The notes under the pieces: generated by a model
Told to the model about the DNA's origin: nothing
The model's database searches: none
Seen by the model: the letters and a program-made list of their open reading frames with translations, nothing else
Position numbers and translations under genes: made by a program
Shown: in pieces, positions 25,580 to 56,381 of the stretch
How positions within the stretch are numbered: the stretch's first letter is position 1
Layout of the letters: the number at the start of each line of letters is the position of its first letter
IMG/VR virus record: IMGVR_UViG_3300036770_006893
Location: 1 to 64,000 of that record
DNA: 64,000 nucleotides
Strand: one strand, 5' to 3'
Origin: a virus

Positions 25580-25580
25580 A

Positions 25581-26759: not shown

Positions 26760-26782
26760 CTAAGAAAATCCAGTAATCTTTT

Positions 26783-26826
26783 ATGCCATTTTGGCAGTCG
26801 TGGCGGGCGGTCTGCCATTATGGCAG
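26783..26826 (-). repeat. 29-bp palindrome pair
   Basis: 15-mers at 26783 and 26812; spacer tcgtggcgggcggt. Overlaps the last codons of the gene at 26818. Confidence 0.9.
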
Positions 26827-27060
26827 TCCCGCTTCTCTCTCATTAGCCTTATTGATAACCCTTTGTGTTTTAATAACTTGGGTCAATCGGTCAGCACTCT
26901 TATAGTCTCTCATGCCTCTCTCATCAACATAAAAATACTCATCTAGAACATCAAAATGATTAATGTCTTTAAAAACTTCGATAGCAGCATCTAGTGGACT
27001 ACTATTAGGAATGCTAACAATCTTTTCGACCGTATTACTTTTTACGTACCACTTACCCAT
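26818..27060 (-). CDS. Hypothetical protein
   Basis: 80 aa, no recognised motif. Its last codons lie in the palindrome pair, 4 bases from the next gene upstream. Confidence 0.7.
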   Translation of the reverse strand: MGKWYVKSNTVEKIVSIPNSSPLDAAIEVFKDINHFDVLDEYFYVDERGMRDYKSADRLTQVIKTQRVINKANEREAGLP

Positions 27061-27064
27061 CTGC

Positions 27065-27307
27065 TCAACTCCCCAAAGAGATTAGGATAGTATCATCATC
27101 GTCATGATTATTATAATCTAAACGACCAACAGTTATTTCGGCATCATCTAAAATATTTTCCAGTTGACTAGGACTAATAAGCGTATCATAGTTAGTACCA
27201 AAACTAATATCACTATTAGAAATAGCGTCCATCACACTACCCAAATCCAAACAGTTGTATTCACAAACATCTTGAATACTAACACACTTATATGTAAAAC
27301 TTTTCAT
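27065..27307 (-). CDS. Acidic hypothetical protein
   Basis: 80 aa with Asp-rich C-terminus (NNHDDDDT). No motif. Confidence 0.7.
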   Translation of the reverse strand: MKSFTYKCVSIQDVCEYNCLDLGSVMDAISNSDISFGTNYDTLISPSQLENILDDAEITVGRLDYNNHDDDDTILISLGS

Positions 27308-27316
27308 ATTATAATC

Positions 27317-28021
27317 CTAGTGAGCAGGAAAGAGAACATTAGCCAAACCGCGAACACACAAGTCGCATGATATACTATCTTTCGTGCCGGTGCAAGTGAT
27401 TTCCGACCGACCACGACGGATTTCGGGACACGTTACAAACTTGCTGCCGTTCAGTACCACAAGTTTCGGCAAGGCTTTCCGCCATGCTTCGGCCTTGACC
27501 TTGCTTTTGGGTCGCTTCGGTGCGATTTTCATATCACTATCACACCATGCAAACAACTTGAAACCCTGAGCCATAGCCTCGCCCATATCTTTATCGTCAT
27601 GGACACTAGCATATACATTCATATACTTTTCCAGACTAACAAGCCTATCATCATAAATATGAGTATAAAACCACATATCGGGCAGACTATCACCATCGGC
27701 CAGAATACTCTCACACGCCCATGTCCAGTTTGCCAAATAGTCTAAGTCTAGTTCACCATTTAGAAAAAAGTCGCCTCTTTCATGAACTCTAATACTTTTA
27801 TTTCTACGCTTTGCATCCAAAATCATAGCACGAATCTTATTCTTTTCTGTAACAAGATTCTGCATACCAGCAGGACGAACGCCCGGATAAATCTTTTCCG
27901 TCTGCTCTGCATAGCAGCCGTTTCCAAGATAATCACAATCCGATGGACAAGTATCTCCAACTGGCCTACTAACCACAACACAGTTTTTTCCCAGTTTATC
28001 GTTACCGTCTGCAACTTTCAT
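27317..28021 (-). CDS. Cys-rich phage protein (CPxxC...CYA family)
   Basis: 234 aa. CPSDCDYLGNGCYAEQ at about residues 25-40, RVHERGDFF near 78-86, FAWCDSD near 150 and a C-terminal CP...C..C cluster resemble a phage family of unknown function (gp88-like, from memory). Probably metal-binding. Promoter at 28046-28073. Confidence 0.72.
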   Translation of the reverse strand: MKVADGNDKLGKNCVVVSRPVGDTCPSDCDYLGNGCYAEQTEKIYPGVRPAGMQNLVTEKNKIRAMILDAKRRNKSIRVHERGDFFLNGELDLDYLANWTWACESILADGDSLPDMWFYTHIYDDRLVSLEKYMNVYASVHDDKDMGEAMAQGFKLFAWCDSDMKIAPKRPKSKVKAEAWRKALPKLVVLNGSKFVTCPEIRRGRSEITCTGTKDSISCDLCVRGLANVLFPAH

Positions 28022-28045
28022 CGTGTTCTCCTTTTGCTCTAATGG

Positions 28046-28073
28046 ATTCTACTATACGTTATCGGCTTGTCAA
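28046..28073 (-). promoter_or_regulatory. Sigma70-type promoter
   Basis: TTGACA, 16 bp with CGATAAC, TAGAAT, preceded by the shared TTTTTGTGGATTTTTT box. Confidence 0.8.
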
Positions 28074-28096
28074 CCTAAAAAATCCACAAAAAAACT

Positions 28097-28140
28097 CTGC
28101 CATTTTGGCAGGCCGCCCGCGATCTATGCCAATTTGGCAG
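28097..28140 (-). repeat. 29-bp palindrome pair
   Basis: 15-mers at 28097 and 28126; spacer gccgcccgcgatct. Followed leftward by GTTTTTTT, terminator-like. Confidence 0.9.
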
Positions 28141-28200
28141 GCAAATCTCCACGCCTTGCTAAGATTTGGTGTATCTCTATTATAACTATAAGGAGTTTAT

Positions 28201-28779
28201 ATGAAAAAGAACAAAACTAGCAAAGCTAAAATAGCTAATAATACTAAATGGGCTAATAAGAACCGCGACAAAGTTAAAGTATATAAGCAAAAATATAAAA
28301 ATAAAACTAAAGATTATAATAGATCATTAGTACAACAAATTAAAGAAAATAGCTCATGTAGTATTTGTGGCGAAACTAGATTCTATTGTTTAGATTTTCA
28401 TCATAGAGATCCATCTACAAAAAAAGATACTGTATGCAATTTAATACGGCATGGTTATTCTACACAAATCATTAAAGAAGAAATAGATAAATGCAATATT
28501 ATTTGTTCTAATTGCCATCGTAAAGAGCATACAAATACATACAAATATCTTACCAAAAAAGCTAGATATGTATTAGAACTAAAGGAAAAATCCTGTTGCT
28601 CTAAGTGCGGATTATCTATACCAGAATGCTTAGATTTCCATCATATTAACGATAATAAAACAGATGGTATAGGTGCTATGCTAAGAAATAAAAACTTTTT
28701 ATTAGAAGATATTAAAACTGAAATACAAAAATGTATAATAGTATGTTCTAACTGTCACAGAGAAATACATAATAAGTAA
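28201..28779 (+). CDS. Tandem double-HNH endonuclease
   Basis: 192 aa with AAGGAG upstream of the ATG. Two complete HNH modules: CSICGETRFYCLDFHH...CNIICSNCHRKEH (about residues 50-110) and CCSKCGLSIPECLDFHH...CIIVCSNCHREIH (about 128-190). A Lys-rich N-terminal DNA-binding arm precedes them. It is the only plus-strand gene here and ends 1 base before the 3' end of tRNA-Arg on the other strand. Probable free-standing homing endonuclease. Confidence 0.9.
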   Translation: MKKNKTSKAKIANNTKWANKNRDKVKVYKQKYKNKTKDYNRSLVQQIKENSSCSICGETRFYCLDFHHRDPSTKKDTVCNLIRHGYSTQIIKEEIDKCNIICSNCHRKEHTNTYKYLTKKARYVLELKEKSCCSKCGLSIPECLDFHHINDNKTDGIGAMLRNKNFLLEDIKTEIQKCIIVCSNCHREIHNK

Positions 28780-28780
28780 A

Positions 28781-28853
28781 TACTGCCGGAAGGATTTGCA
28801 CCCTCGTAAATCAACTTAGAAGGTTGATGCCTAATCTACTCGGCCACGGCAGC
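28781..28853 (-). tRNA. tRNA-Arg(TCT)
   Basis: 73 nt. Acceptor GCTGCCG/CGGCAGT, anticodon stem TCAAC/GTTGA with loop CTTCTAA, T-loop TGCAAAT. Confidence 0.88.
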
Positions 28854-28854
28854 A

Positions 28855-28896
28855 TAAAAACCGATAGCCGCCAGTTCAACACTAGCGGTCTATCGG
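28855..28896 (-). terminator. Rho-independent terminator
   Basis: Leftward stem CCGATAGACCGC / GGCGGCTATCGG (one bulge) followed by TTTTTATG. It ends the gene at 28920 and lies immediately before tRNA-Arg. Confidence 0.8.
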
Positions 28897-28919
28897 ATAT
28901 TATAGCAGTTATGCTAGGC

Positions 28920-29174
28920 TCAGACAAGAACCTCCTCTTGCTTTTCCACCTTGCTGTTATGAGCATCGCCAGCAGCCTTAGCGGTTACACCAGTAACCCT
29001 AGCACGCCAGACCTTGTAACCCTGCTCGCTAAAAGCCTTGACTTCGCCAGCCTTGACATTAGCATGAACATCACCGGGCAGAGCATCACGCAGACACTCG
29101 CTAATCGAATCCACAACAACCTCACGGTCAAGATCGCCAGCCACAATATCAACAACAAAAGAAAACTTCTTCAT
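28920..29174 (-). CDS. Hypothetical protein
   Basis: 84 aa from the ATG at 29172-29174 with GGAGAG upstream. Val/Ala/Asp-rich beta-alpha pattern, no family recognised. Tandem promoters upstream. Confidence 0.75.
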   Translation of the reverse strand: MKKFSFVVDIVAGDLDREVVVDSISECLRDALPGDVHANVKAGEVKAFSEQGYKVWRARVTGVTAKAAGDAHNSKVEKQEEVLV

Positions 29175-29216
29175 GGTAAATCTCTCCAAGTTAGTGTCAA
29201 TCGAACCAATAAAACA

Positions 29217-29244
29217 ATCATATCACGCAATCATCACTTGTCAA
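29217..29244 (-). promoter_or_regulatory. Sigma70-type promoter P2
   Basis: TTGACA, 16 bp, TATGAT. Confidence 0.7.
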
Positions 29245-29304
29245 GAGCCAATCCGAACTTTTTTGTTGTCGTGATCGGTTGGCGTCTTGTCGTGTGATGC
29301 TATC

Positions 29305-29332
29305 ATTGTACCACTGTTATCGTCACTGTCAA
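29305..29332 (-). promoter_or_regulatory. Sigma70-type promoter P1
   Basis: TTGACA, 16 bp with CGATAAC, TACAAT, 88 bp upstream of P2. No gene between them. Confidence 0.7.
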
Positions 29333-29397
29333 GCCGCTTGCTGAATCTTTTTTTGGATTTTTCGTAAGTGTATGCTGCTACAGAGGTTACGTCATAT

Positions 29398-29441
29398 CTG
29401 TCATTTTGGCAGTTCGGCCGCGGTGCCTGCCGCTTTGGCAG
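29398..29441 (-). repeat. 29-bp palindrome pair
   Basis: 15-mers at 29398 and 29427; spacer ttcggccgcggtgc. The TAA of the preceding gene is at its edge. Confidence 0.9.
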
Positions 29442-29810
29442 TTATGAGAGATAACCCTCACAACCCAAAGAGGTCAGGTCACGCAGCAGATTTTCCGCCA
29501 TCTCAGCATTTTTGAGAGTGATGCTGTTGGTGTGGTGAGTAGCAGGAACGAACCTGTCGCCCTTCCAGCCGCCAACCAGATCATCAGTCCAATCCTTCGA
29601 CTCCTTCAAACCCCAGCCCGTATACTGGCGAATAATCTTGATGCAAGGAATACGATTATCCAAACTCATACCATTCGTGATCGTAACAGTACAACGCTGG
29701 TTCACACCCAACGCAACCTCAACAGCCTGCGTGATACGCTCTCTAATGTTCTCCCTAGCATAAAAAGCAAGTTCCATAGCCTCACGAACGCTCATTTCCA
29801 ACTTGATCAT
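29442..29810 (-). CDS. Ribosomal L7/L12 C-terminal-domain-like protein
   Basis: 122 aa. IPCIKIIRQYTGWGLKESKDW (about residues 55-75) closely resembles the conserved helix-turn of the L7/L12 C-terminal domain (IKxVRxxTGLGLKEAKDLV). It is followed by a second helix with AEMAENLLRDLTSLGCEGYL like the end of that domain. The L7/L12 dimerisation domain and hinge are missing, replaced by an unrelated 50-aa N-terminus. It could bind translation factors or be a reused fold. Confidence 0.72.
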   Translation of the reverse strand: MIKLEMSVREAMELAFYARENIRERITQAVEVALGVNQRCTVTITNGMSLDNRIPCIKIIRQYTGWGLKESKDWTDDLVGGWKGDRFVPATHHTNSITLKNAEMAENLLRDLTSLGCEGYLS

Positions 29811-30289
29811 ATAGCAAAACTTTCTGTATATTTAGGTTCGATTTCGTAAATACCGTCAAAACTACCGTTACGCTCTTCTAGAATATAAACTTGCTTACCA
29901 TCAGTAATCAAGGTGTCATATTCTGTTCCATCCCAAACGAACTCGTTATTGTCGCTTTCTCGTCGCCAATGCGGGTCACGAATAGGATTATAAAACAACT
30001 TTTCAAGATTGTCAACAGGCAACCGTGGAAAAAAACTTTTCCTTAGCATAACCTCTTCACATCTTACCCAACCACTAACATCATGCACACCAGCCTCGTA
30101 TACCTGTTTAGCCTTATTGGGCCGGTTCCACAATATACAACCCCTCATTTCCAACTGGTATTCTTTCGGGTCGTGGTAATATACATCAACAGTCTTACCA
30201 CCCTGCTTAACTTTCACTTGCCAGTGCATATAATGTTCACCGTTAGACAAATGAAATCGAACTTCGGCGTGTAGTGGTTTCGTTTTCAT
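29807..30289 (-). CDS. Hypothetical protein
   Basis: 160 aa, beta-rich appearance, no family recognised. ATGA overlap with the L7/L12-like gene, so the two are translationally coupled. Confidence 0.75.
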   Translation of the reverse strand: MKTKPLHAEVRFHLSNGEHYMHWQVKVKQGGKTVDVYYHDPKEYQLEMRGCILWNRPNKAKQVYEAGVHDVSGWVRCEEVMLRKSFFPRLPVDNLEKLFYNPIRDPHWRRESDNNEFVWDGTEYDTLITDGKQVYILEERNGSFDGIYEIEPKYTESFAI

Positions 30290-30295
30290 GCTTCT

Positions 30296-30324
30296 AGTAT
30301 ACCTTATCGACCAACTCTTGTCAA
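30296..30324 (-). promoter_or_regulatory. Sigma70-type promoter
   Basis: TTGACA, 17 bp, TATACT. Confidence 0.75.
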
Positions 30325-30459
30325 GACCTTTAAACTTTCGCTGACTACAGCCACCCCAGCCAAATCCGAAGGATTAGGAAAAACAATGTCGGCTTCCGCC
30401 ATACTCGACCAGCATTTCAGATAGCCTCTTTTGATATCATTGTGGCTATCCCCGTCCAT
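30304..30459 (-). CDS. Possible 51-aa protein spanning the repeat and a promoter
   Basis: ATG at 30457-30459 with AAGGA and a promoter immediately upstream. The middle (VFPNPSDLAGVAVVS) is encoded by the CTAATCC element and the end runs into the next promoter. Translation plausible, function unknown. Confidence 0.45.
   Translation of the reverse strand: MDGDSHNDIKRGYLKCWSSMAEADIVFPNPSDLAGVAVVSESLKVLTRVGR
30339..30384 (-). repeat. CTAATCC/GTAGTCAGC element, copy 6
   Basis: CCTAATCC-TTC-GGATT hairpin, GGCTGTAGTCAGCGAAA, 15 bp upstream of a -35. Confidence 0.85.
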
Positions 30460-30469
30460 TGTTTCCTTA

Positions 30470-30497
30470 AGTATACCATTAGTATCGGCACTGTCAA
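30470..30497 (-). promoter_or_regulatory. Sigma70-type promoter
   Basis: TTGACA, 16 bp with CGATAC, TATACT. Confidence 0.75.
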
Positions 30498-30520
30498 TAC
30501 CAATCTATAAGAAAAATATT

Positions 30521-30564
30521 CTGCCATTTTGGCAGTTGCGCCGCGGCTCCTGCCGTTTTGGCAG
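30521..30564 (-). repeat. 29-bp palindrome pair
   Basis: 15-mers at 30521 and 30550; spacer ttgcgccgcggctc, next to the stop at 30565. Confidence 0.9.
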
Positions 30565-30777
30565 CTAGGAGTTTTTATGCACTAGATCAATATACTTTTC
30601 TACTAGTTCGTAGGTATCAATCTGGTGAATGTTTATTAATTCTTTAGCCTTAGTAATGGATGCTTTATTCATGGCATTCATACGAGAGTTAAAGAAGTTG
30701 ATGATATAAACCATAGCCTGATCCTTAGTCATATTTTTAGGATCAGTACCGAGCAAGTCGCTAAAGTTTTTAGCCAT
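30565..30777 (-). CDS. Hypothetical helical protein
   Basis: 70 aa, helical throughout, no motif. Two bases from the gene upstream. Confidence 0.7.
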   Translation of the reverse strand: MAKNFSDLLGTDPKNMTKDQAMVYIINFFNSRMNAMNKASITKAKELINIHQIDTYELVEKYIDLVHKNS

Positions 30778-30779
30778 TA

Positions 30780-31100
30780 TTATTCCTCATGAAATCCCCA
30801 ACGGCCACTATCGCCCCAAACCTCTCTACTTTTAGGATAATCGTCAGGATAATCTCTTGCAGAACCGTCAGCATTAACCGGCCTACGTGGCCTAGTCATT
30901 TCAGGATTGTATGGCATCCACCACGGAGTATCCATACGATCTACAACCCCCAAAGATTCTTTACAATAGATGATATGATGGCTCACCGGATCGTCAGGAG
31001 AATACTTATACTGACCAAACCACACACCAATATACTTACCATAATAGTAGATAAGTTGTCCATCTTCTGGTTGACGATCAAAAAAACTAATCCATTCCAT
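30780..31100 (-). CDS. DUF551-like protein
   Basis: 106 aa from the ATG at 31098-31100 (TAATG overlap). MEWISFFDRQPEDGQLIYYYG then WWMPYNPE is the DUF551 pattern found in phages. Function unknown. Confidence 0.75.
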   Translation of the reverse strand: MEWISFFDRQPEDGQLIYYYGKYIGVWFGQYKYSPDDPVSHHIIYCKESLGVVDRMDTPWWMPYNPEMTRPRRPVNADGSARDYPDDYPKSREVWGDSGRWGFHEE

Positions 31101-31294
31101 TACCAACCCTCCGGCATAGGAATATCACCAAGATACATATAATATGCAACTTCATTAGCATCAAGAGTTTCCCAACCGCTATTGTGATAACCCCAAGAGG
31201 AACCATCCCAATATAGTTCACTAGGCTTGTTATTGCCAATAATAGCACAGAGATAATAGCCTATATCAATAGGTTGTCCACTTCGCCATTCCAT
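31100..31294 (-). CDS. DUF551-like small protein
   Basis: 64 aa. YYLCAI, LYWDGSSW and terminal DIPMPEGW resemble the second half of DUF551 proteins. Tandem with the previous gene. Confidence 0.65.
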   Translation of the reverse strand: MEWRSGQPIDIGYYLCAIIGNNKPSELYWDGSSWGYHNSGWETLDANEVAYYMYLGDIPMPEGW

Positions 31295-31518
31295 TATTTA
31301 CCCCTCGTAATAATCACACACTTTGTACCCTTATCCTCATCAGTATACCTAAGACACTCATGAGACCCATAATACCAAACATCATTCTTAGAAAAGTTGA
31401 ATATAATCTCTTCCGTATGAAGTTGAGTATCATCATACCCACCCTCATAACCCAGAGTCAATACCCTCATATCCCCAGGATAATCCTTCAACTGCTCAAT
31501 CAGTTCGTTAACTGTCAT
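31294..31518 (-). CDS. Conserved phage protein
   Basis: 74 aa. MTVNELIEQLKDYPGDMRV followed by GYEGGYDD is a common phage small-protein pattern. Promoter just upstream. Confidence 0.75.
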   Translation of the reverse strand: MTVNELIEQLKDYPGDMRVLTLGYEGGYDDTQLHTEEIIFNFSKNDVWYYGSHECLRYTDEDKGTKCVIITRGK

Positions 31519-31524
31519 GTTTGC

Positions 31525-31553
31525 ATTCTACCCTATAGTTATCGTCATGTCAA
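31525..31553 (-). promoter_or_regulatory. Sigma70-type promoter
   Basis: TTGACA, 17 bp with CGATAAC, TAGAAT. Confidence 0.75.
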
Positions 31554-31556
31554 TAA

Positions 31557-31806
31557 GAAAAAACCAGCGGAACCTTTTACGCCCCAGTTCCTATAACCCA
31601 TACGATTGCCCCTTGTCAGGATCGGATGGAAACCGCCCACGGAAACCTTCCTAGGATTGGTCATGACTCAATCCGTCTGGCTCTTGGGGACGATTACTGG
31701 TTGTGTTGTAAACCAGCGAGTCATTTACGATCCGACTCTTAACCGTCCACGCCATGCAGGGCTTTTAACCCCGTCTTACAGGTATATTCACGGTTACTGG
31801 TTGTAT
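31557..31806 (-). ncRNA. Hairpin-rich 250-nt region, candidate structured RNA
   Basis: No supported gene. Leftward reading gives successive stems GAGTC/GACTC, CTGGTT/AACCAG, CGTC/GACG, GGATTG-A-GTC/GACCAATCC and GGAAC/GTTCC, the last followed by GGTTTTTTC as a terminator. It follows the tRNA-like gene at 31809 in the same transcript. A T-arm-like GGGG-TTAAAAG-CCCT occurs near 31755. Identity unknown. Confidence 0.45.
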
Positions 31807-31808
31807 TA

Positions 31809-31885
31809 GAGCGTGGACAGGGATTCGCACCCCATTAGATTGGTATACTATCCTAACGTATAACCCCGTTAGGCAACCCCACGCT
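31809..31885 (-). tRNA. tRNA-like gene, non-canonical D/anticodon region
   Basis: 77 nt. Acceptor AGCGTGG/CCACGCT and T-arm GGGG-TGCGAAT-CCCT are good. The anticodon arm can form TATAC/GTATA around a 9-nt loop GTTAGGATA (centre AGG, Pro), or the D side can form CCTAAC/GTTAGG. Neither gives a normal cloverleaf. Confidence 0.55.
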
Positions 31886-31967
31886 GCATAACAGCCGTAG
31901 GTTTATCGTACAGGTTATCCCAATCTAGTCGCTAGACCCACGCAAGTTTGTTTTGGTTTACTCAATC

Positions 31968-31995
31968 ATTCTACAATCTAGTATCGTCTTGTCAA
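31968..31995 (-). promoter_or_regulatory. Sigma70-type promoter
   Basis: TTGACA, 16 bp with CGATAC, TAGAAT, preceded by TTTTTTTGTGGATTTTTT. Drives the tRNA-like gene and hairpin-rich region. Confidence 0.75.
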
Positions 31996-32019
31996 GAGAA
32001 AAAATCCACAAAAAAATGT

Positions 32020-32063
32020 CTGCCACTTTGGCAGATTTCGCGGCCCCTCTGCCGTTATGGCAG
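32020..32063 (-). repeat. 29-bp palindrome pair
   Basis: 15-mers at 32020 and 32049; spacer atttcgcggcccct; followed leftward by ACATTTTTTT. Confidence 0.9.
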
Positions 32064-32075
32064 GCGGGGTTTTCT

Positions 32076-32558
32076 TTAGGCCTCTATTTCGTCTTCAGAA
32101 AAAAAGTTCTCTAAATCGAACTCGTTCCAAATAGCCATAGGAATCATATCCTTGCTGGTATATTCGATATAGTTATCAAAACCATTATCATAAATACCAC
32201 AGAAAGCCATGCCCGGCTCAAAATAGGACGCCTTTACATTGTATCCCAACTCTATCAGTTTCTCATACAATCCGATAGGGGGCGACCAAGCAGAGTCAAA
32301 TGTACCACTAACCTGATTACCAACCCTAGTAGCCTTTAGCCCATAATACTCTTCTTTATCTGTACCAATATCGGCCCCAATGTCCCACTTGGTTCCCCAG
32401 TTATTCACACAAAAATCCCACCAACCATCCCCAATATCTTCCGGCATGGGAATAAACTCATTACAAGTCTCACCTCTATTATAAGCCGCCTCAAAACGAT
32501 CAACCATAGCAGGATCGCTATGTTCAACAGTCAGATTGTTCAAGCACCAGTTTGGCAC
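32076..32558 (-). CDS. DUF1281 (YubB-type ferredoxin-fold) protein
   Basis: 160 aa. MPNWCLNNLTV, then FIPMPEDIGDGWWDFCVNNWGTKWD and a terminal acidic tail match the DUF1281/YubB family common on plasmids and phages. Function unknown. Confidence 0.82.
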   Translation of the reverse strand: MPNWCLNNLTVEHSDPAMVDRFEAAYNRGETCNEFIPMPEDIGDGWWDFCVNNWGTKWDIGADIGTDKEEYYGLKATRVGNQVSGTFDSAWSPPIGLYEKLIELGYNVKASYFEPGMAFCGIYDNGFDNYIEYTSKDMIPMAIWNEFDLENFFSEDEIEA

Positions 32559-32577
32559 AAATCACCTATCTTTCTAT

Positions 32578-32757
32578 TCAGTTGGCACTAGGAGAGGGAA
32601 GTTTACGCTCATTGCAAATCATAACAGTATCGGCAATCATGTCAATACCAGCAGAAATAAGATTATACTGATCGTCTGGTTTCATATCAGTCATAGCGGT
32701 ATGAATCACACAAACAGCAAACTGTTCCAGAATCTGAGTCAACTCGTTTTTCGTCAT
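32578..32757 (-). CDS. Small helical protein
   Basis: 59 aa, helical (LTQILEQFAVCVIHTAMTDM). ATGA overlap with the nuclease-like gene upstream. Confidence 0.7.
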   Translation of the reverse strand: MTKNELTQILEQFAVCVIHTAMTDMKPDDQYNLISAGIDMIADTVMICNERKLPSPSAN

Positions 32758-33302
32758 GCTGCTCTCCTTTTTTTATCGGTTGTCAATCCCAAAAAACTAT
32801 ACAAATCTTGTCCAATCATCTTGCTATGTTTGCCGTGGTATATAGAGTACCCTTCTCGACCTCTTTTCAACTCACCATTACAGATTCTAGCATATACGGC
32901 TCGCTTAGTCAAGATACGAAAATCCACATTATACGGTGTCACATATACCAAAACCAGTCGATCAAAACACTCTGGTTTTACCCCAGGAAAGGTATAGGTG
33001 TAATAAACCTGTCCCCTACGAGTCGCGCGTTTTTCTGCCAAACTACTTTTGACTTCGATTTTTTCAGTACCGGCCCACAGATCACACCTTTGATTCGTTC
33101 CACCCTTCTTAGCCATATCATAGCCAGCATAACCAAATAGGGTCATGACTAGAGCCTCTGTATTATCGCTACGCTCAGTTTTGCTCTGAGTGCATAAATC
33201 ATAAGAAACATCGTTCTGCTCTGGACTATAATAATCATAATCCTTAGCATACATCTCTTTTACCAACTTCTTAGCCTTATGGAGATCCTTCAGCGTAAGC
33301 AT
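32754..33302 (-). CDS. Putative PD-(D/E)XK endonuclease
   Basis: 182 aa. CDLWAGTEKIEVKSS (about residues 72-86) has D-x8-EVK, the active-site pattern of PD-(D/E)XK nucleases. It is followed by a FDRLVLVYVTP strand typical of restriction-type folds, and a basic C-terminus. DNA target unknown. Confidence 0.6.
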   Translation of the reverse strand: MLTLKDLHKAKKLVKEMYAKDYDYYSPEQNDVSYDLCTQSKTERSDNTEALVMTLFGYAGYDMAKKGGTNQRCDLWAGTEKIEVKSSLAEKRATRRGQVYYTYTFPGVKPECFDRLVLVYVTPYNVDFRILTKRAVYARICNGELKRGREGYSIYHGKHSKMIGQDLYSFLGLTTDKKRRAA

Positions 33303-33338
33303 CTCTTTACTCCTTAGAACCGTACCAGATATATCGGC

Positions 33339-33366
33339 ATTTTATCAGCCGTTCGCCACTTGTCAA
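33339..33366 (-). promoter_or_regulatory. Sigma70-type promoter
   Basis: TTGACA, 16 bp, TAAAAT. Confidence 0.65.
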
Positions 33367-33388
33367 TAAAAACTTTGACAAAATATAA

Positions 33389-33432
33389 CTGTCATTTTGG
33401 CAGATTGGGCGCAAAAACTGTCATTTTGGCTG
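33389..33432 (-). repeat. 29-bp palindrome pair (degenerate)
   Basis: 15-mers at 33389 and 33418 with CTGTCA left arms; spacer attgggcgcaaaaa. Fused to the CTAATCC element. Confidence 0.8.
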
Positions 33433-33474
33433 ACAACACCCATGCCGCCCGAATCCGAAGGATTAGCAGGAACA
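33428..33474 (-). repeat. CTAATCC/GTAGTCAGC element, copy 7
   Basis: GCTAATCC-TTC-GGATT, then GTTGTCAGCC merging into the palindrome. Follows tRNA-Glu. Confidence 0.75.
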
Positions 33475-33477
33475 GAA

Positions 33478-33550
33478 TAGCGCCACGGAGGATCGAACTC
33501 CGATCTCCGGGATGAAAGCCCGGTATACTAAACCATTATACTATGGCGCC
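33478..33550 (-). tRNA. tRNA-Glu(TTC)
   Basis: 73 nt. Acceptor GGCGCCA/TGGCGCT, anticodon stem CCGGG/CCCGG with loop CTTTCAT, T-loop TTCGATC. Confidence 0.92.
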
Positions 33551-33554
33551 ATAT

Positions 33555-45184: not shown

Positions 45185-45276
45185 AAATGTGTTCCTTTTT
45201 TGATTAAAATATTGACTCGCAATAGAGCAAAGTTACTATATACTAACAGTTGATCATTTTCTGGCAAGGAGAAATT

Positions 45277-45429
45277 ATGACAGAAGACCATATTAAATTT
45301 GTAAGCTCTATTTTGGAAGTTAAAGCTTCCGGCCTGGATAATGAAATTATAAACGATCTATCATTACCCCCAGGCAAAAGTATAGCAGAATTATTATATG
45401 ACCAAAAAACCAAAGAAGAAAACAAATAA
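45277..45429 (+). CDS. Small hypothetical protein
   Basis: 50 aa from the ATG at 45277 with AAGGAG upstream. Helical, acidic N-terminus. Overlaps the sigma-like gene by 32 bases. Confidence 0.7.
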   Translation: MTEDHIKFVSSILEVKASGLDNEIINDLSLPPGKSIAELLYDQKTKEENK

Positions 45430-46018
45430 ATTACCAAATAACGTAGATGAACAGGAATTCATAAGAGTATTAGACGTTATTAGTAAAAAACTAGGCCACA
45501 AATTTAAATTTGGCTATCATGATTTTGATGATATGAAACAGCAGGCCGCTATATTTGCTCTAGAGGGACTAGAGAAATATGACAATTCTAGACCACTAGA
45601 AAACTTTTTGTGGATCCATGTTAGAAATAGACTATTCAACTACAAAAGAAACAACTACCAGAGACCAGACAAACCCTGCTTAACTTGCCCCTTCTATGAC
45701 AAACACTATTCTTGCTCAAATAATCAATGCTCAGAGTTTAAAGATAAAACCGAATGCGAACTATATAATTCATGGTCATCAAGAAATGACGCCAAGAAAA
45801 ATATTATGCAACCATCTTATATTGATCACGACATACCAAACTCAAACAACTTACTAAACACTATACAAAACGAAGAAATAATAAAATTTTTGGACGAAAA
45901 TGTTAGCACAGAATACAGAGAGTCATATCTTAAGCTAAAACACGGAGACAAAATTCCCAAGCCACAACTAGTAAAACTTCAAAACTACATACTGTTACTA
46001 ATGAAAAATTTTGAGTAA
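45398..46018 (+). CDS. Sigma-factor-like protein (late sigma, gp55-like candidate)
   Basis: 206 aa. KFGYHDFDDMKQQAAIFALEGLEKYDNSRPLENFLWIHVRNRLFNYKR (about residues 35-85) follows the pattern of sigma70 region 2, with the helix that contacts polymerase and the aromatic melting region. CLTCPFYDKHYSCSNNQC (about 93-110) forms a zinc-like insertion. No region 4 HTH is visible, as in T4 gp55. Its place at the head of the packaging genes fits a late-gene regulator. Confidence 0.7.
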   Translation: MTKKPKKKTNKLPNNVDEQEFIRVLDVISKKLGHKFKFGYHDFDDMKQQAAIFALEGLEKYDNSRPLENFLWIHVRNRLFNYKRNNYQRPDKPCLTCPFYDKHYSCSNNQCSEFKDKTECELYNSWSSRNDAKKNIMQPSYIDHDIPNSNNLLNTIQNEEIIKFLDENVSTEYRESYLKLKHGDKIPKPQLVKLQNYILLLMKNFE

Positions 46019-46022: not shown

Positions 46023-46838
46023 ATGGCCAGTAAAAAAAGAGGACAACTTAGCTTAGAAGAAGAAAAATTTATCAGAGATCAATATGGGTCTTTAACCATA
46101 GAAGATATAGCAAATCAGCTCAATAGAAATATCGACCCTATTAAAAGATATATAAAAGAAAATAATTTAACAACAGTAAATAATAGTGAAGAGCTTAGAG
46201 ACAACGAAATATTAAAACAAAAACTTCACAGCAAAACTTTTTGGCCAGAGATCAAGAGACAGTTTGATGAGGATAGTGGAGAACTTCAATACTTTGAAGA
46301 TACATGGGTTGGCCTTATTAAACAATTTAGAGAAGATGTTTTACCAGCAGAAGAACTGCAAATTAAACAATTTATCACCATCGATATTCTCATCAACAGA
46401 AGTATGAAAGAAAGAAAAAGACACATAGCAGAAACTGAAAAGCTTCAAAAACAAGTTGATAAAGAATACGAAAAACCAGAAGATCAGAGAGATATACCAA
46501 AACTGGCCAACCTCGAAACACAATTAAGTTTTGCTAGAAATAGTATTTCCAACTATACAAATGAATATACCAAACTCCTAAATGAACAACAAAAAATTAG
46601 CAAAGACCTTAAAGCCACTAGAGAACAAAGAATCAAAAGAATAGAAGATGGTAAAAGTAGTTGGGTTGGACTAATTCGCATGCTTGAGGATGAAGAAATA
46701 AGAGAAAAAGAAGGCAAACAAATGGAAATATTAGCTTTAGCCACCAACAAAGCCAAAGATCACTTATATCAATATCATACATATCAGGACAATGTGGTAG
46801 ACAAACCATTTTTAACATCAGAAAGCGTAGAGGACTAA
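46023..46838 (+). CDS. HTH plus coiled-coil protein, possible small terminase
   Basis: 271 aa from the ATG at 46023. N-terminal HTH (YGSLTIEDIANQLNRNIDPIKRYIKEN, about residues 21-48), then long coiled coil (about 110-220). Small terminase subunits often have this layout, but the large subunit is four genes downstream, so this is only a candidate. Confidence 0.6.
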   Translation: MASKKRGQLSLEEEKFIRDQYGSLTIEDIANQLNRNIDPIKRYIKENNLTTVNNSEELRDNEILKQKLHSKTFWPEIKRQFDEDSGELQYFEDTWVGLIKQFREDVLPAEELQIKQFITIDILINRSMKERKRHIAETEKLQKQVDKEYEKPEDQRDIPKLANLETQLSFARNSISNYTNEYTKLLNEQQKISKDLKATREQRIKRIEDGKSSWVGLIRMLEDEEIREKEGKQMEILALATNKAKDHLYQYHTYQDNVVDKPFLTSESVED

Positions 46839-46839: not shown

Positions 46840-47838
46840 ATGAAAAAAACCGCATTAATCACAGGAATTACAGGTCAAGACGGATCATATTTGGCCCACC
46901 TACTCTTGCACAACAACTATAATGTTATTGGTTTATATAGACGATCTAGCACAGATAATTTTCACAGAATAAATGACATAAATAGTCCAAATTTTGTCTT
47001 AGAAGAATTTGATCTAACAGATAGTAGCGGATGCTATAGAATTATAGAAAAATATCGTCCAGACGAATTATACAATTTGGCCGCTCAAAGTCATGTTGGT
47101 ACTAGTTTTAGTCAACCAATAACAACCTTTCAGATTGATACTATGGGACTACTGCACTTACTAGAAGCTGTTAGATCTTGCTCTAATCACACCAAAGTAT
47201 ATCAAGCTAGCACTAGCGAAATGTTTGGGTCTAATTATGACCAAAATGAAGCTCTTGGCAAATATCAAAATGAAAATACGGTTTTTTTGCCCCAAAGTCC
47301 GTATGCTGTGGCCAAATTGGCTAGTCATAGACTAATACAGATTTATCGCGAAGCTTATGGACTATTTGCATGTTCAGGCATCTTATTTAATCATGAGAGC
47401 CCAAAAAGAGGGTCTAATTTTGTTACTAGAAAAATTACATCATATATCGGTCAGCTTGTTAATAATAAAATTTCATCAGAAAATAAACTACACCTAGGCA
47501 ACATAGAAGCTCATAGAGATTGGGGACACGCTAAAGATTATGTTAAAGCCATGCACTTAATGATGCTTCAAGAACAACCTGACGACTTTGTTATAAGTAC
47601 GGGCTCAACTCATTCAGTAAAAGAATTTCTAGAAATTGCTTTTAATTTAGTCGGATTAAATTGGCAAGATTATGTTGTGATTGATCCACAATTTTATCGC
47701 CCTTGTGAAGTTGAATTTTTAAAGGGAGATAGCTCCAAAGCTAGAAGAGTATTATCTTGGGAGCCCAATATTTCTTTTCAGCATTTGGTGATAGAAATGG
47801 TTAACTCTGACATAGAGTATTATAAAAATGTTTCGTAA
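46840..47838 (+). CDS. gmd: GDP-mannose 4,6-dehydratase
   Basis: 332 aa, the family's usual length. GITGQDGSYLAHLLL (Rossmann NADP loop) at the N-terminus, STSEMFG near residue 124, catalytic YAVAK near 152, FNHESPKRGSNFVTRK near 179 and AHRDWGHAKDYV near 223, all diagnostic of Gmd. It converts GDP-mannose to GDP-4-keto-6-deoxymannose, the precursor of GDP-fucose and rhamnose-type sugars. Unexpected among packaging genes; may serve glycan modification. Confidence 0.93.
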   Translation: MKKTALITGITGQDGSYLAHLLLHNNYNVIGLYRRSSTDNFHRINDINSPNFVLEEFDLTDSSGCYRIIEKYRPDELYNLAAQSHVGTSFSQPITTFQIDTMGLLHLLEAVRSCSNHTKVYQASTSEMFGSNYDQNEALGKYQNENTVFLPQSPYAVAKLASHRLIQIYREAYGLFACSGILFNHESPKRGSNFVTRKITSYIGQLVNNKISSENKLHLGNIEAHRDWGHAKDYVKAMHLMMLQEQPDDFVISTGSTHSVKEFLEIAFNLVGLNWQDYVVIDPQFYRPCEVEFLKGDSSKARRVLSWEPNISFQHLVIEMVNSDIEYYKNVS

Positions 47839-48103
47839 TTTTGATGACCCTCAATATAAGCAGTGGCGAAAAAAGGTTTATACTAGAGATAATTTTACTT
47901 GTCAATGGCCAGGTTGTGGAGATAAAAAAAAATTGAATGCGCATCATATTAAAACTTGGAGTGAGTATCCTTCTTTAAGGTTTGTGGTAGAAAACGGTAT
48001 TACTCTTTGTAGAAATCATCATAAAATGATAAAAAATCTTGAACATATTTATGAGGCTATTTTTTTTAAAATATTAGCGAACAAAAACAATGAAAAATCA
48101 TGA
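47828..48103 (+). CDS. HNH endonuclease next to terminase
   Basis: 91 aa, a bare HNH domain: WRKKVYTRDNFTCQWPGC, LNAHHIKTW and GITLCRNHHKM. HNH proteins adjacent to terminases are known to assist packaging cleavage in several phages. Overlaps genes on both sides. Confidence 0.9.
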   Translation: MFRNFDDPQYKQWRKKVYTRDNFTCQWPGCGDKKKLNAHHIKTWSEYPSLRFVVENGITLCRNHHKMIKNLEHIYEAIFFKILANKNNEKS

Positions 48104-48557
48104 CTTTACTATCATAATAGATACCAGAGAGCAACAGCCCTGGATGTTTGATAATTATACCACAGCAAATAAAAAATTAGACACAGGAGACTACAGTATA
48201 GAAGGATTAGAGCATTTACTATGTATAGAACGAAAAAAGAGTGTTAGCGAATTTGCAAATAATATCATAGAATCTAGATTTAAAGATGTTATTATGCGAA
48301 TGAGTCAGCTTAAATATTCTTTTTTACTTCTCGAATTCGATCTAAAAGATGTATTAATATATCCTGTTGGTAGTACCGTACCTAAAAGAATGTGGGATAA
48401 AATTAAGATATCTCCAGCATTTTTAATGAAAAATCTTTTAGAGCTTCAATTAAATCACAATATAAAAGTAGTATTTTGTGGGAGCGCCAGTAATGCTGAA
48501 AAAATGGCAGAATATATTCTCAATAAGGTAAACTATATTGAAAAATTCAACAAATAA
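48090..48557 (+). CDS. ERCC4-type nuclease
   Basis: 155 aa. IIIDTREQQPW at the N-terminus, LDTGDYSIEG near residue 33 and CIERKKS near 48 form the ERCC4/XPF active site (GDX...ERKxxxD). Such phage proteins cut branched or flap DNA. Overlaps the terminase start. Confidence 0.87.
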   Translation: MKNHDFTIIIDTREQQPWMFDNYTTANKKLDTGDYSIEGLEHLLCIERKKSVSEFANNIIESRFKDVIMRMSQLKYSFLLLEFDLKDVLIYPVGSTVPKRMWDKIKISPAFLMKNLLELQLNHNIKVVFCGSASNAEKMAEYILNKVNYIEKFNK

Positions 48558-50568
48558 AATATTTGATGATGCATGGTTGGGTCTTGGGGATCTTTCGTCC
48601 CTTAGTATCCTCGATAATCCTATGATACATAGGAGCAAGGTAGATATAGAAAATCCTGACCTACACCTAGTAAAACTTTTAAGAAATCCCAAATACATAG
48701 GTACTACTTGTAAATTGCTTTTTGGTATAGAGCTTCACCCAATACAAATTGCTATATTGCAAGAATTTTGGATACGAGCTTTTCCTATGTATATAGCTAG
48801 TCGTGGATGGGGTAAAAGCTTTTTGCTAGCTTTGTATTCTATATTGCGTTGTGCGTTTTTCCCAGGCACCAAAATTGTTATAGTTGGTTCTGCTTTTAGA
48901 CAGAGTAAGATTATTTTCGAATATATGGAAACTATATGGAGAAGTAGCCCAATATTAAGGAGTATATTTAACGGTAATGATGATGGCCCTAGGCGAGATG
49001 TTGATAGATGTACTATCAGACTAGGAGACAGCTGGGCTATAGCTATTCCTATGGGCGACGGCAGCAAGATTAGAGGCTTAAGAGCACACATAATTATTGC
49101 TGACGAATTTGCGTCTATTAGTCCGGAAATATATGAAACTGTTGTTTCTGGATTCGCTGCGGTTAGCGCTAGTCCTATACAAAATGTCAAGGAAGAAGCC
49201 AAAAAACAAGCCATGAAAGAAGCTGGTATATGGAATGAAGATTTAGAAGCATTAGACTATAAAATGGGTAATCAAGCAATTATAAGTGGCACGGCTGATT
49301 ATGCATTCAAGCATTTTGCCTCATACTGGAAAAGATATAAGGCAATTATAGAGAGCAAGGGCGACACAACTGTGCTACAAGACATATTTAAGGGAGATGT
49401 TCCTAGTAATTTTAACTGGAAAGATTATTGTATTATTAGGATACCTTATGAATTAATACCCAAAGGTTTTATGGACGATAAACAGGTTAGTAGAGCAAAA
49501 GCAACTATACATACTGGCGTATATAACATGGAATACGCAGCTTGTTTTGTAAGTGATAGTGAAGGGTTTTTTCGAAGATCTTTAATAGAGAGCTGTGTTG
49601 TTTCTGATACCAAACCAATTGTTATTAATGAAAAACCGATTGTTTTTGATGCTACGACTGTTGGAAACCCATCTTGTAACTATGTTTACGGTATTGATCC
49701 GGCTAGTGAACAAGATAACTTTAGTATAACCATACTCGAAGTACATCAAGATCATTCTCGACTTGTTTATTGTTGGACTACTAATAGAAGCAATTTTAAA
49801 GAAAGACAAAAAACAGGTTTAATTAATGAGTATGATTTTTATGGATTTTGTGCTAGAAAAATTAGAAACCTTATGAAAATTTTTCCATGTAGTAGACTAG
49901 GTATTGATGCTCAGGGGGGTGGCGTAGCAATAGAGGAGGCGCTTCATGATCCAAATAAATTAGAAGACGGTGAGCAATTATTATGGCCCATTATAGATCC
50001 AAATAAATCAAAAGATACTGATGATCAGCCAGGACTACACATTATAGAGTTGGTTCAATTTGCTAAGGCTGATTGGACTAGTCAAGCTAATCACGGTCTA
50101 CGAAAAGATCTTGAAGATAAGGTTTTATTATTTCCGCGATTCGATAATTTAACTTTGGGTTTAGCGTTAGATAGCGAAAACAAAAATATATTAGAATCAG
50201 AATTAAATCCTATTTATGATACTCTTAGCGAATGCATATTAGAAATAGAAGAACTTAAAAATGAATTGACCACAATAGTCATGACACAAACTAGTACTGG
50301 CCCAAACGCTAGAGACAGATGGGATACTCCAGAACTAAAATTACCAAATGGTAAAAAGGGTAGATTACGCAAAGATAGATACAGCTCATTAGTAATAGCC
50401 AATATGATAGCTAGACAAATGCACAGATCTCTCAAAACAATAGAATATGATGTTATAGGAGGAAATGCCAGATCATATACAGGCAAATCCGGTCAAATGT
50501 ATAAAGGACCAGACTGGTTTATAAACGGTGGCGGAAATGATGACATTTATACAGGAATTTACAGATAG
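48538..50568 (+). CDS. Terminase large subunit
   Basis: 676 aa from a TTG, or about 648 from the ATG at 48622. ATPase: ASRGWGKSF (Walker A, about residue 90) and HIIIADEF (Walker B, about 183). The nuclease half begins at YGIDPASEQDNFSITILEV (about 380) with later Asp residues (GIDAQGGGVA). It packages DNA into proheads through the portal encoded next. Length is within the usual range. Confidence 0.93.
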   Translation: MKNSTNKIFDDAWLGLGDLSSLSILDNPMIHRSKVDIENPDLHLVKLLRNPKYIGTTCKLLFGIELHPIQIAILQEFWIRAFPMYIASRGWGKSFLLALYSILRCAFFPGTKIVIVGSAFRQSKIIFEYMETIWRSSPILRSIFNGNDDGPRRDVDRCTIRLGDSWAIAIPMGDGSKIRGLRAHIIIADEFASISPEIYETVVSGFAAVSASPIQNVKEEAKKQAMKEAGIWNEDLEALDYKMGNQAIISGTADYAFKHFASYWKRYKAIIESKGDTTVLQDIFKGDVPSNFNWKDYCIIRIPYELIPKGFMDDKQVSRAKATIHTGVYNMEYAACFVSDSEGFFRRSLIESCVVSDTKPIVINEKPIVFDATTVGNPSCNYVYGIDPASEQDNFSITILEVHQDHSRLVYCWTTNRSNFKERQKTGLINEYDFYGFCARKIRNLMKIFPCSRLGIDAQGGGVAIEEALHDPNKLEDGEQLLWPIIDPNKSKDTDDQPGLHIIELVQFAKADWTSQANHGLRKDLEDKVLLFPRFDNLTLGLALDSENKNILESELNPIYDTLSECILEIEELKNELTTIVMTQTSTGPNARDRWDTPELKLPNGKKGRLRKDRYSSLVIANMIARQMHRSLKTIEYDVIGGNARSYTGKSGQMYKGPDWFINGGGNDDIYTGIYR

Positions 50569-50613: not shown

Positions 50614-52830
50614 ATGGCAAAAAAAATAAATAAAGAAAAAAATAGTGCAATTTCTGATGCTAGAATAGTCCCAGAAGAGGCTTATGTTACTTGGGGGGAT
50701 GATCTTGTTAGCAAAAAAGAAGCTTTGACCGAGTCTTCTGCGTCTTTAGATGAGTTTACTCTTATAGAAAGAGCTTCTGCCACTAGAAGATATGGACTAG
50801 ATTATTCTAAACTAGACGGTCAAACTGGTGGTAGGCCAGGACTAACTAAATCAGACTACTATTATTTTAGGCCAGATGAGGCACCTCCTCAAAAACTAAA
50901 GTATATTTTACGCAGAGCTGATGATATATATCAAAGAGTTGGTTTAGTTAAGAACGTTATTGATCTTATGGGAGATTTTGCTAGTCAAGGCATTAGGTTG
51001 GTTCATAGAAATAAGCGTATTGAAAGATTCTATAGACAGTGGTTCAAAAAAATTAATGGCAAAGATCGAAGTGAAAGATTTTTAAACAATCTATATAAAA
51101 GCGGCAATATAGTTATAGATAGAAGAACAGCAAAAATAAGCGTAAAAGTTGCCGATCATCTTTATAGATCATTAGGTAAATCAGACTATCAGATATCTGA
51201 AGATATCAATATTCCTTTAGAAAAAAGAGAAATACCCTGGAAATATACATTTATCGATCCTGTTTTTGTTGACGTGGCTGCTGGCGCATTATCTTCTTTT
51301 ATATCAAGTAAACAGTACGAGCTTCAAATTCCAGCTAATCTTAAAAAAATTATTAATAGCCCCAAAACCGACGCTGAAAAAAAAGTAGTAGATTCTTTAC
51401 CACCAGAAATTATTGAAGCGGCTAAAACTAAAAAGAACTATCCATTAGACCCAAACAAAACTCTAGTTTTTCACTACAAAAAAGATGATTGGCAGGCCTG
51501 GGCCTATCCTATGATATATGCTATTATGGATGATATAACTGTAATAGAAAAACTAAAATTAGCAGATATGGCAGCATTAGATGGTGCAATAAGTAATATC
51601 AGAATTTTTAAACTGGGTAGCCTAGAACACAGAATAGCTCCTACCAAAGCAGCAACTGCTAAGCTAGCTCAAATACTGGGCAATAATGTTGGTGGAGGCA
51701 CAATGGATTTGATTTGGGGCCCAGATATTGAATTATTAGAGAGTAATACAAATGTTCATAACTTTTTGGGAGAAGGTAAATATATACCTCATTTAAATGC
51801 TATATATGCTGGCCTAGGAATTCCTCCAACACTCACAGGAACTTACGGCGCAGCTGGTACAACAAACAATTTTATAAGCCTAAAAACACTAACACAAAGA
51901 TTGCAATACGGCAGAAATGTTTTGGTAGATTTTTGGGATCAAGAAATAGCGCTAGTTCAAAAAGCTATGGGGTTTAAATACCCAGCCAAAATAGAATTCG
52001 ACAGAATGGATCTGAGCAATGAAGAAAGCGAAAAGGCGCTATTAATTCAATTAGCTGATCGTAACTTGATCAGCGATGAGCTATTACAAACAAAATTTGG
52101 CTTTGATCCCGAAATAGAAAAGTCTAGACTGAATAGAGAGCATAGAGACAGAAAGGGTAATAGGATGGTGGCTAAATCTGGACCTTGGTTTGATCCTCAG
52201 CTAGAAAACGCTCTTAAGAAAATAGCTCTGCAATCGGGTATAGTTGCTCCAAGTGAGGTCGGATTAGATCTAAGTAAAAAGAAACCTGGCGAGAAAAATG
52301 CTTTGGAGCATAAGATCAAAAATGCTAACCCAACGCAGTTGGCAAAAGATTCGCCAGAATCTTTGCCAGGACAACCGGGACAAGGAAGGCCAAAAAACTC
52401 TAAGGATGGTCAGCAACGAAAAACAAAAGTCTTCAAACCACAAACAGGTGCTTCTTTAGAAGTTTGGGCCAATAGAGCACAAGACCAGATTGCAGACATA
52501 ATGAATCCTATAATGCTAGAATTTTACAAGAAAAAAAATGTTAGATCATTATCCTCCCAAGAGTCTAATGAGCTAGACATAGTAAAAACAAAAATTCTTT
52601 TTACAATGGAACCGTTTTCGAAAGTGTGCCATGACACAGTTAATGCCTGTCTACATCATATCAATAAGCCACAAACATTTGAAATATTAAACGGTTATAA
52701 TAAATGGTTTAAAGCTCTTCAAAATAATATAGAATCGACACTATCGGTAGAGGAACAAAAACGAGCCAAAGCATCTTTTTATGTGATGGTGTATGAAAAT
52801 ACTATCGCTAATAATGGAGAATCAAAATGA
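50614..52830 (+). CDS. Portal protein
   Basis: 738 aa, directly after terminase. YQRVGLVKNVIDLMGDFASQGIRLVHR (crown/wing), AYPMIYAIMDDITVIEKLKLADMAALDGAISNI and LNAIYAGLGIPPTLTGTYGAAGTTNN are portal-type segments, followed by a basic C-terminal extension. The ring of 12 copies forms the DNA gate. The stop overlaps the next ATG. Confidence 0.88.
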   Translation: MAKKINKEKNSAISDARIVPEEAYVTWGDDLVSKKEALTESSASLDEFTLIERASATRRYGLDYSKLDGQTGGRPGLTKSDYYYFRPDEAPPQKLKYILRRADDIYQRVGLVKNVIDLMGDFASQGIRLVHRNKRIERFYRQWFKKINGKDRSERFLNNLYKSGNIVIDRRTAKISVKVADHLYRSLGKSDYQISEDINIPLEKREIPWKYTFIDPVFVDVAAGALSSFISSKQYELQIPANLKKIINSPKTDAEKKVVDSLPPEIIEAAKTKKNYPLDPNKTLVFHYKKDDWQAWAYPMIYAIMDDITVIEKLKLADMAALDGAISNIRIFKLGSLEHRIAPTKAATAKLAQILGNNVGGGTMDLIWGPDIELLESNTNVHNFLGEGKYIPHLNAIYAGLGIPPTLTGTYGAAGTTNNFISLKTLTQRLQYGRNVLVDFWDQEIALVQKAMGFKYPAKIEFDRMDLSNEESEKALLIQLADRNLISDELLQTKFGFDPEIEKSRLNREHRDRKGNRMVAKSGPWFDPQLENALKKIALQSGIVAPSEVGLDLSKKKPGEKNALEHKIKNANPTQLAKDSPESLPGQPGQGRPKNSKDGQQRKTKVFKPQTGASLEVWANRAQDQIADIMNPIMLEFYKKKNVRSLSSQESNELDIVKTKILFTMEPFSKVCHDTVNACLHHINKPQTFEILNGYNKWFKALQNNIESTLSVEEQKRAKASFYVMVYENTIANNGESK

Positions 52831-54854: not shown

Positions 54855-55865
54855 ATGTCAGCTAAAACACAGAAATTTCAGCCAACGCCAGAACTAACAG
54901 ATCTTTTAGTTCGTTCTGGTTCTCAAAATAGAGAAGTTGCTCTTGCTGCTAATGCAGAATTTGCAAAAGCTCTTGAATTACCGCTAAGAAAGGGTCTTCT
55001 TAGTGGCGATATTCTAGATGGCATTTTTGAGCCAATTCAGTTAGCTCAGAGTGCTACTCCAGAATTTCCACTAGATTTTTTGGCTCCTGGAACCGAAAAG
55101 GACTTTGTGGCCTACACAATTCCTAATCATGGTTATATTCCAGAGCGCCATGTTGAAAGCGATTATGTCATGGTACCAACCTACGACATTGGCGCATCAA
55201 TCGATTATCTCTTAAAGTACGCTAGAGATGCTCGCTGGGATGTTGTTGGTCGTGCCATGGAAGTTCTAGAGAGTTCATTTGTTAAAAAGATGAACGACGA
55301 TGGCTGGCATACCATTTTAGCCGCTGGTGTTGATCGCAACATTGTGGTTTATGATAGTGATGCTGATGCTAATCAGTTCACAAAGAGATTGGTAAGCTTA
55401 ATGAAGACAGTTATGCGCAGAAACGGTGGCGGTAATAGCGCCAGTAACAATCGCGGAATGTTAACTGATCTTTATGTTAGCCCAGAAGCTATGGAAGATA
55501 TTCGCAACTGGGGCGTTGATCAGGTCGATGAAATTACTCGTAGAGAAATCTACACTGCTGCTGATGGTACTCTCAACAGAGTGTTTGGAGTTAATCTACA
55601 CGACCTAGACGAACTAGGTGTTGGTCAAGAATATCAGCTATTCTATGGTGATGTTCTCAACGGAACACTACCAACCGGAGATAGCGAAGTTGTTGTTGGT
55701 CTAGACCTTAGAAAGAGCGACAGCTTTATTATGCCTGTTCGCGAACAAGTCCAGATCTTTGAAGACGAAACCCTACATCGTCAAAAACGAGCTGGTTTCT
55801 ATGGTTGGGCCGAACAAGGCTTTGCTGTTCTTGATAATCGTAGAGTTCTAATCGGCTCTCTATGA
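54855..55865 (+). CDS. Major capsid protein
   Basis: 336 aa with GGGAG upstream. Helical N-terminal arm, then LAPGTEKDFVAYTIPNHGYIPERHVESDYVMVPTYDIGASIDYLLKYARDARWDV (E-loop/spine-helix region) and C-terminal VREQVQIFEDETLHRQKRAGFYGWAEQGFAVLDNRR, as in HK97-fold capsids. Followed by a strong terminator. Confidence 0.9.
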   Translation: MSAKTQKFQPTPELTDLLVRSGSQNREVALAANAEFAKALELPLRKGLLSGDILDGIFEPIQLAQSATPEFPLDFLAPGTEKDFVAYTIPNHGYIPERHVESDYVMVPTYDIGASIDYLLKYARDARWDVVGRAMEVLESSFVKKMNDDGWHTILAAGVDRNIVVYDSDADANQFTKRLVSLMKTVMRRNGGGNSASNNRGMLTDLYVSPEAMEDIRNWGVDQVDEITRREIYTAADGTLNRVFGVNLHDLDELGVGQEYQLFYGDVLNGTLPTGDSEVVVGLDLRKSDSFIMPVREQVQIFEDETLHRQKRAGFYGWAEQGFAVLDNRRVLIGSL

Positions 55866-55902: not shown

Positions 55903-55931
55903 GGCTGGCCTTTATGGCCAGCCTTTTTTTT
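55903..55931 (+). terminator. Rho-independent terminator after major capsid
   Basis: GGCTGGCC-TTTAT-GGCCAGCC stem followed by eight T residues. Confidence 0.93.
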
Positions 55932-55940
55932 AGGTGTAAT

Positions 55941-55976: not shown

Positions 55977-56381
55977 ATGGCAGCAAGTCGCTATGATTTC
56001 GATATCGAGCAGGGTTCGTCTTTTGCGATAAGTATCGTTTATAAAGATGCCGAAAAGAATATTGTCGATTTAACAAATTGGTGTGCGAGACTAACATGGA
56101 AAACAAATAATAATCTTACTCAGATATTTACAACAGAAAATTTAGACTTTTCCGCATATAAATTCTTTATAGATGGACCCAATGGCAAGATTACTTTTAT
56201 GATCCCAGCTTCTGCTACTAATTATTTTGATTTTAAAACTGCTAAATACGATCTGGAAATACAAAGTCCCGATGACTTATATGGTGGCGGTGGCAAATTT
56301 ACCACACGAATATTGTTTGGTGTAATTAATCTTATTAAGAGATACAGTAAATCTGGTTCAGATTTGGATTGTCAAATATGA
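55977..56381 (+). CDS. Neck/tail-type phage protein
   Basis: 134 aa. YDFDIEQGSSFAISIVYKDAEKNIVDLTNW, a C-terminal YDLEIQSPDD and TRILFGVINL give the pattern of small phage baseplate/neck-type proteins. Function not proven. Confidence 0.72.
   Translation: MAASRYDFDIEQGSSFAISIVYKDAEKNIVDLTNWCARLTWKTNNNLTQIFTTENLDFSAYKFFIDGPNGKITFMIPASATNYFDFKTAKYDLEIQSPDDLYGGGGKFTTRILFGVINLIKRYSKSGSDLDCQI

Follow-up and report, generated by a model that had tools for sequence, protein, structure and literature searches.

A probable phage late-gene sigma factor with a four-cysteine knuckle and a candidate GGTGTAT promoter element in a lineage of uncultured phages

The T4 protein gp55 consists of a region 2 domain, a helix-loop-helix guiding the template strand and a tail that binds the clamp, and its late promoters consist of a -10-like box with no -35 (PMC7892883). 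Sigmas that recruit the host polymerase are also encoded by the Group 2 jumbo phages of Iyer et al., which have no RNA polymerase of their own; the passages of that survey drawn on here distinguish a minimal HTH version and an RpoD-like version (PMC7824862). The locus analysed here lies in a window of 64,000 nucleotides (positions 1 to 64,000 of the 224,357-base virus record IMGVR_UViG_3300036770_006893). The ORF at 45398..46018 on the + strand is a real gene encoding a 206-aa sigma-like protein, which is probably a phage-encoded late-gene sigma of gp55-like design, carrying a zinc knuckle and using a promoter code of its own, GGTGTAT.

Scans of IMG/VR that combined pattern searches with tblastn yielded at least 469 relatives of this protein, and two more were found in metagenome-assembled bacterial bins. 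Scanning DNA with patterns for the RPxKPC motif recruited diverged clades, among them the RPNK clade at approximately 47-55% identity and the RPEK clade at approximately 39-45%. The 50,697 records of isolated phages contained no convincing relative when searched with the window protein, the family consensus and two distant members, the two borderline matches having E=0.1.

As judged by homology and predicted fold, residues 18-86 (45449..45655, + strand) are sigma region 2, as in the sigma-70 superfamily. On its own, the window protein matches Pfam Sigma70_r2 with E=0.0042, under the gathering score; 50 of 50 family members match this profile (best 1.7e-5), and the same number match a PHROG sigma family (best 8e-7). 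The curated Sigma70_r2 cut-off was passed in three of five records in whole-genome searches, and region 2 matches in five genomes amounted to one per genome, always the sigma-like protein under study. A PDB profile search based solely on the close alignment was unproductive; with the broad family profile, two ECF sigmas, CnrH and SigW, were the only solved chains matched, both weakly and in register.

Both AlphaFold models contain a three-helix region 2 (helices 18-33, 43-59 and 67-86 in the AF2 model). Foldseek pairs it with the N-terminal (region-2) domain of SigE, 8b3z, at a TM(target) of 0.69 and a probability of 0.99, and the best 50 PDB matches listed for the second, better model were all sigma chains or sigma-containing models. 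The E-values from Foldseek are weak (0.014 at best, none <0.001) and the whole-chain rmsd exceeds 20 A because the orientation of the domains is undefined, and the firm match is therefore limited to region 2. The sequence-only reading had proposed a region 2-like segment and suggested structure prediction as a check; both the profile matches and the sigma-2 topology of the predicted fold bear this out.

In sigma factors, regions 2.3 and 2.4 read and melt the -10 box, and D-L-x-Q-E is the beta'-binding signature of cellular sigmas. In sequence alignments, D45, Q48 and Q49 of the window protein fall at the position of this signature. Residues 63-93, which correspond to regions 2.3/2.4, are the best-conserved segment: identity to the RPEK clade is 80% here, compared with 60% in region 2.2, 44% in the Cys part and 20% at the C-terminus. 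A fixed promoter specificity would be expected to leave such a gradient.

Region 2 is followed by a four-Cys knuckle, C94-x2-C97-x13-C111-x8-C120 (45677..45757, + strand), a probable zinc site. The four cysteines are invariant in all 50 sequences of a diverse alignment that includes clades approximately 42% identical, while C106 is not conserved. Across the family the spacing is C-x2-C-x(7-15)-C-x8-C. Invariant cysteine pairs separated by a loop of variable length, here 7 to 15 residues, usually mark a metal knuckle; the metal is probably zinc. The better AlphaFold model places this part at a pLDDT of about 80-85. A Cys cluster after region 2 that T4 gp55 does not have was part of the first description of this gene, and it is indeed absent from seven gp55 homologues.

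The C-terminal helical domain (residues 152-206, 45851..46015, + strand) is modelled with confidence as helices 152-168, 171-181 and 188-205 but is poorly conserved. Region 4 gave no sequence match in the window protein or in family members; the C-terminus does have three helices, and Foldseek alignments to sigmas run over the whole length. The original statement that the protein is without region 4 is thus correct at the sequence level, although it passed over this confidently predicted domain.

Compared with T4 gp55, the protein is likewise a small phage sigma with region 2 homology, no region 4 at the sequence level and an extra element directly after region 2. Here, however, this element is the four-Cys knuckle instead of the helix-loop-helix, and region 2.2 retains the cellular D-x-x-Q pattern. 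An hhalign comparison gave a weak in-register match (KFKFGYH/RFNFSGY, E=0.0028, probability 11%), the gp55 PHROGs phrog_234 and phrog_12791 did not match the family, and no gp55-type C-terminal clamp motif was seen by eye in the family alignments. The proposed resemblance to gp55 holds as an analogy, but these comparisons do not support membership of the gp55 family, and the promoter word differs as well (see below). With the cellular ECF/sigma-70 proteins SigE, SigW and CnrH the family shares the fold and signature of region 2; it differs from them in the inserted Cys knuckle, in having no region 4 recognisable by sequence and in a candidate promoter without a -35.

The gene stands at the head of a conserved packaging cassette. 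A small 50-aa ORF of the same operon (45277..45429, + strand; found in 82 of 185 loci at E<=1e-4) overlaps its start. Downstream follow a 271-aa protein with an HTH and a long helical body (46023..46838, + strand), a candidate small terminase or co-activator, and then genes for a GDP-mannose 4,6-dehydratase, an HNH protein and an ERCC4-type nuclease (46840-48557), which keep this place between the HTH and large-terminase genes throughout the lineage. The large terminase (TerL; 48538..50568, + strand, phrog_2 E=9.8e-21) and the portal (50614..52830, + strand, phrog_2739 E=7.4e-12) complete the series. The order sigma, HTH, (GDP-mannose dehydratase), HNH, ERCC4 nuclease, TerL, portal is kept in 180-185 of 185 loci, the portal being scored only where a locus extends to it. 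The HTH protein adjoins the sigma gene in every one of the 185 loci and TerL was found in 182; conversely, 51 of 52 loci selected by TerL and having at least 4 kb upstream contain the sigma gene. These counts confirm that the gene heads the packaging genes, as had been read from the window alone.

This fixed position in a cassette with the HTH protein, HNH, ERCC4 nuclease, TerL and portal would also suit a DNA-binding protein linked to packaging, in which region 2 and the Cys knuckle had been taken over for a terminase- or procapsid-related function and the role in transcription was lost. We regard this as very unlikely, as the polymerase-binding signature of region 2.2 (D45, Q48, Q49) and regions 2.3/2.4 are the best-kept parts of the protein, and a phage-specific promoter in these phages needs a reader.

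Candidate promoter words were sought by counting words upstream of genes relative to their own genome-wide frequency. For the genes of the window phage beyond 43 kb, the top 7-mer was TGGTGTA, with 12 of 31 copies located 15-130 nt upstream on the same strand vs 1.6 expected (p=2e-8 before correction for 16,384 words). In the late regions of eight other genomes, which are mutually related so that the sites are not all independent, the top word was GGTGTAT (20 of 45 copies upstream, 1.27 expected, p=1.7e-19). The element is strand-specific (27 forward, 2 reverse) and lies mostly 30-75 nt ahead of start codons, and no conserved -35 partner was found among 41 sites. A single -10-like late element with no -35 is also what characterises the gp55 promoters. 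The positive control, the same kind of k-mer test on T4, returned TATAAATA, the known T4 late box. This word was not enriched here by the same test, and GGTGTAT in place of TATAAATA is a further difference from T4. Other enriched words (TGGACA, GGACAAT and ACTATAAG) were rejected, as they occurred mostly in coding repeats or in a ribosome-site context.

In the window, GGTGTAT is found at 52788..52794 (+ strand), 39 nt before the ORF at 52827, and GGTGTAA at 56319..56325 (+ strand), 50-59 nt before the next ORF. A conserved site follows the major capsid protein gene (54855..55865, + strand; PDB 6wkk gp27 MCP, E=2.5e-7), where a predicted intrinsic terminator consisting of an inverted repeat and T8 (55903..55931, + strand) is succeeded by the candidate late promoter element GGTGTAA (55933..55939, + strand). 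In 16 of 20 distinct relatives GGTGTA stands directly after the capsid-gene terminator, in most of them as GGTGTAT; the chance expectation is approximately 4% each. One of the genomes with this site has a sigma that shares only about 42% identity. Over the most distant clade as a whole, GGTGTAT does not head the list of upstream words, and because of this its conservation there is carried mainly by the post-capsid site. A literature search found no description of GGTGTA as a phage promoter, and as far as that search reached the GGTGTAT single-box promoter is new.

The HTH protein, which always adjoins the sigma gene and weakly resembles phage regulators (D5-like phrog_323 in 36 of 40 members, best 3.5e-6), could in principle activate GGTGTAT, or a host alternative sigma could read it, with no phage sigma involved. 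The element is, however, kept across diverged clades of the lineage, its sites are single -10-like boxes, and the HTH protein, given its long helical body and its place beside TerL, might equally be the small terminase. Of the explanations considered here this one is the least probable.

A more serious competitor lies outside the window. The source record encodes a second phage sigma-like protein of 194 aa (175602-176183, - strand) with a strong region 4 (Sigma70_r4 E=7.5e-13), to which hhalign found no relation of the present family; its gene appears to be co-transcribed with the preceding one. It is kept in 10 of 18 relatives, including all searched contigs >170 kb, and with its strong match and its conservation in the same phages it might itself be the late sigma that reads GGTGTAT. 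The 206-aa protein would then have another role, either as a sigma of the middle class or an accessory one, or as a factor directed against the host that sits on the clamp helices. Yet the GGTGTAT sites offer no conserved -35 to a region 4, contigs (though these are fragments) exist that carry the motif and not the second sigma, and the gene of the 206-aa protein is fixed beside the virion genes. We therefore consider this assignment unlikely, although clearly less so than the two alternatives above. The phage-specific late promoter anticipated by the sequence-only reading has been found, as GGTGTAT before late genes; we infer that it is read by the 206-aa protein rather than by the second sigma, which could also read it. 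Since the same phages carry GGTGTAT before their late genes, they probably use the 206-aa protein to steer the host polymerase there.

The operon of the sigma gene itself has a predicted host-sigma70-type promoter, TTGACT-N16-TACTAT (45212..45239, + strand). Its counterpart in relatives is TTGACA-N17/18-TATAAT, with TTGAC present in 32 of 36. Behind a promoter of this TTGAC(A/T)-N16-18-TATAAT-like type, the factor can be made by the host polymerase before it is needed. In a few relatives GGTGTA stands just before the TTGAC box of the operon, an arrangement suggesting that a late promoter lies in tandem there and that the factor activates its own operon. TTGACAA, a word of host type, ranks near the top of the upstream words in the left 43 kb, which looks early, and is followed about 17 nt further on by TATAAT-like boxes. 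Many host-type promoters of the form TTGACAAG...GTATACT were observed in upstream regions on the - strand between 6889 and 36558, with CCGATA recurring between the boxes, possibly as an operator. The early region also contains seven tRNA genes on the minus strand (19552-33551).

No beta subunit of a multisubunit RNA polymerase was detected in five genomes searched, with positive controls. Like the Group 2 jumbo phages, these would be phages without their own polymerase that encode polymerase-recruiting sigmas, but a type with region 2 and a Cys knuckle is not mentioned in the passages of the survey used here (PMC7824862). Searches for a sliding clamp of bacterial or T4 type in five genomes gave no match to PF02916 or PF02767, the T4 control being positive for PF02916, although a divergent clamp may escape such profiles. 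This again differs from T4, as no T4-type clamp gene was found and the sigma gene is located with the packaging genes.

Taken as a late sigma, the 206-aa protein would act as follows. The sigma operon would be transcribed, presumably early, by the host holoenzyme from the TTGAC/TATAAT promoter. Region 2 would then bind the beta' clamp helices of the host core RNA polymerase through D45, Q48 and Q49, and promoters with the single -10-like box GGTGTAT would be opened, the box being read by residues 63-93. The four-Cys knuckle, probably with zinc bound, would stand in for the helix-loop-helix of gp55 or for sigma region 3, and the helical domain at the C-terminus may touch the beta flap or a partner protein, for example the adjacent HTH protein.

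Whether the family also constitutes a distinct class of phage late sigma, defined by region 2 plus a zinc knuckle, one-box GGTGTAT promoters, no T4-type sliding clamp and a large uncultured lineage without isolates, is in our estimate evenly balanced. The sigma-like protein and GGTGTAT form a sharply defined, testable protein-promoter pair, and the word offers a means of annotating late genes across hundreds of contigs. If the proposed role is correct, the T4 design would be joined by a second natural one in which gp55-like initiation needs no more than a -10 box, and an abundant uncultured lineage would gain a complete transcription logic, with host sigma70 serving the early genes and a phage sigma the late ones.
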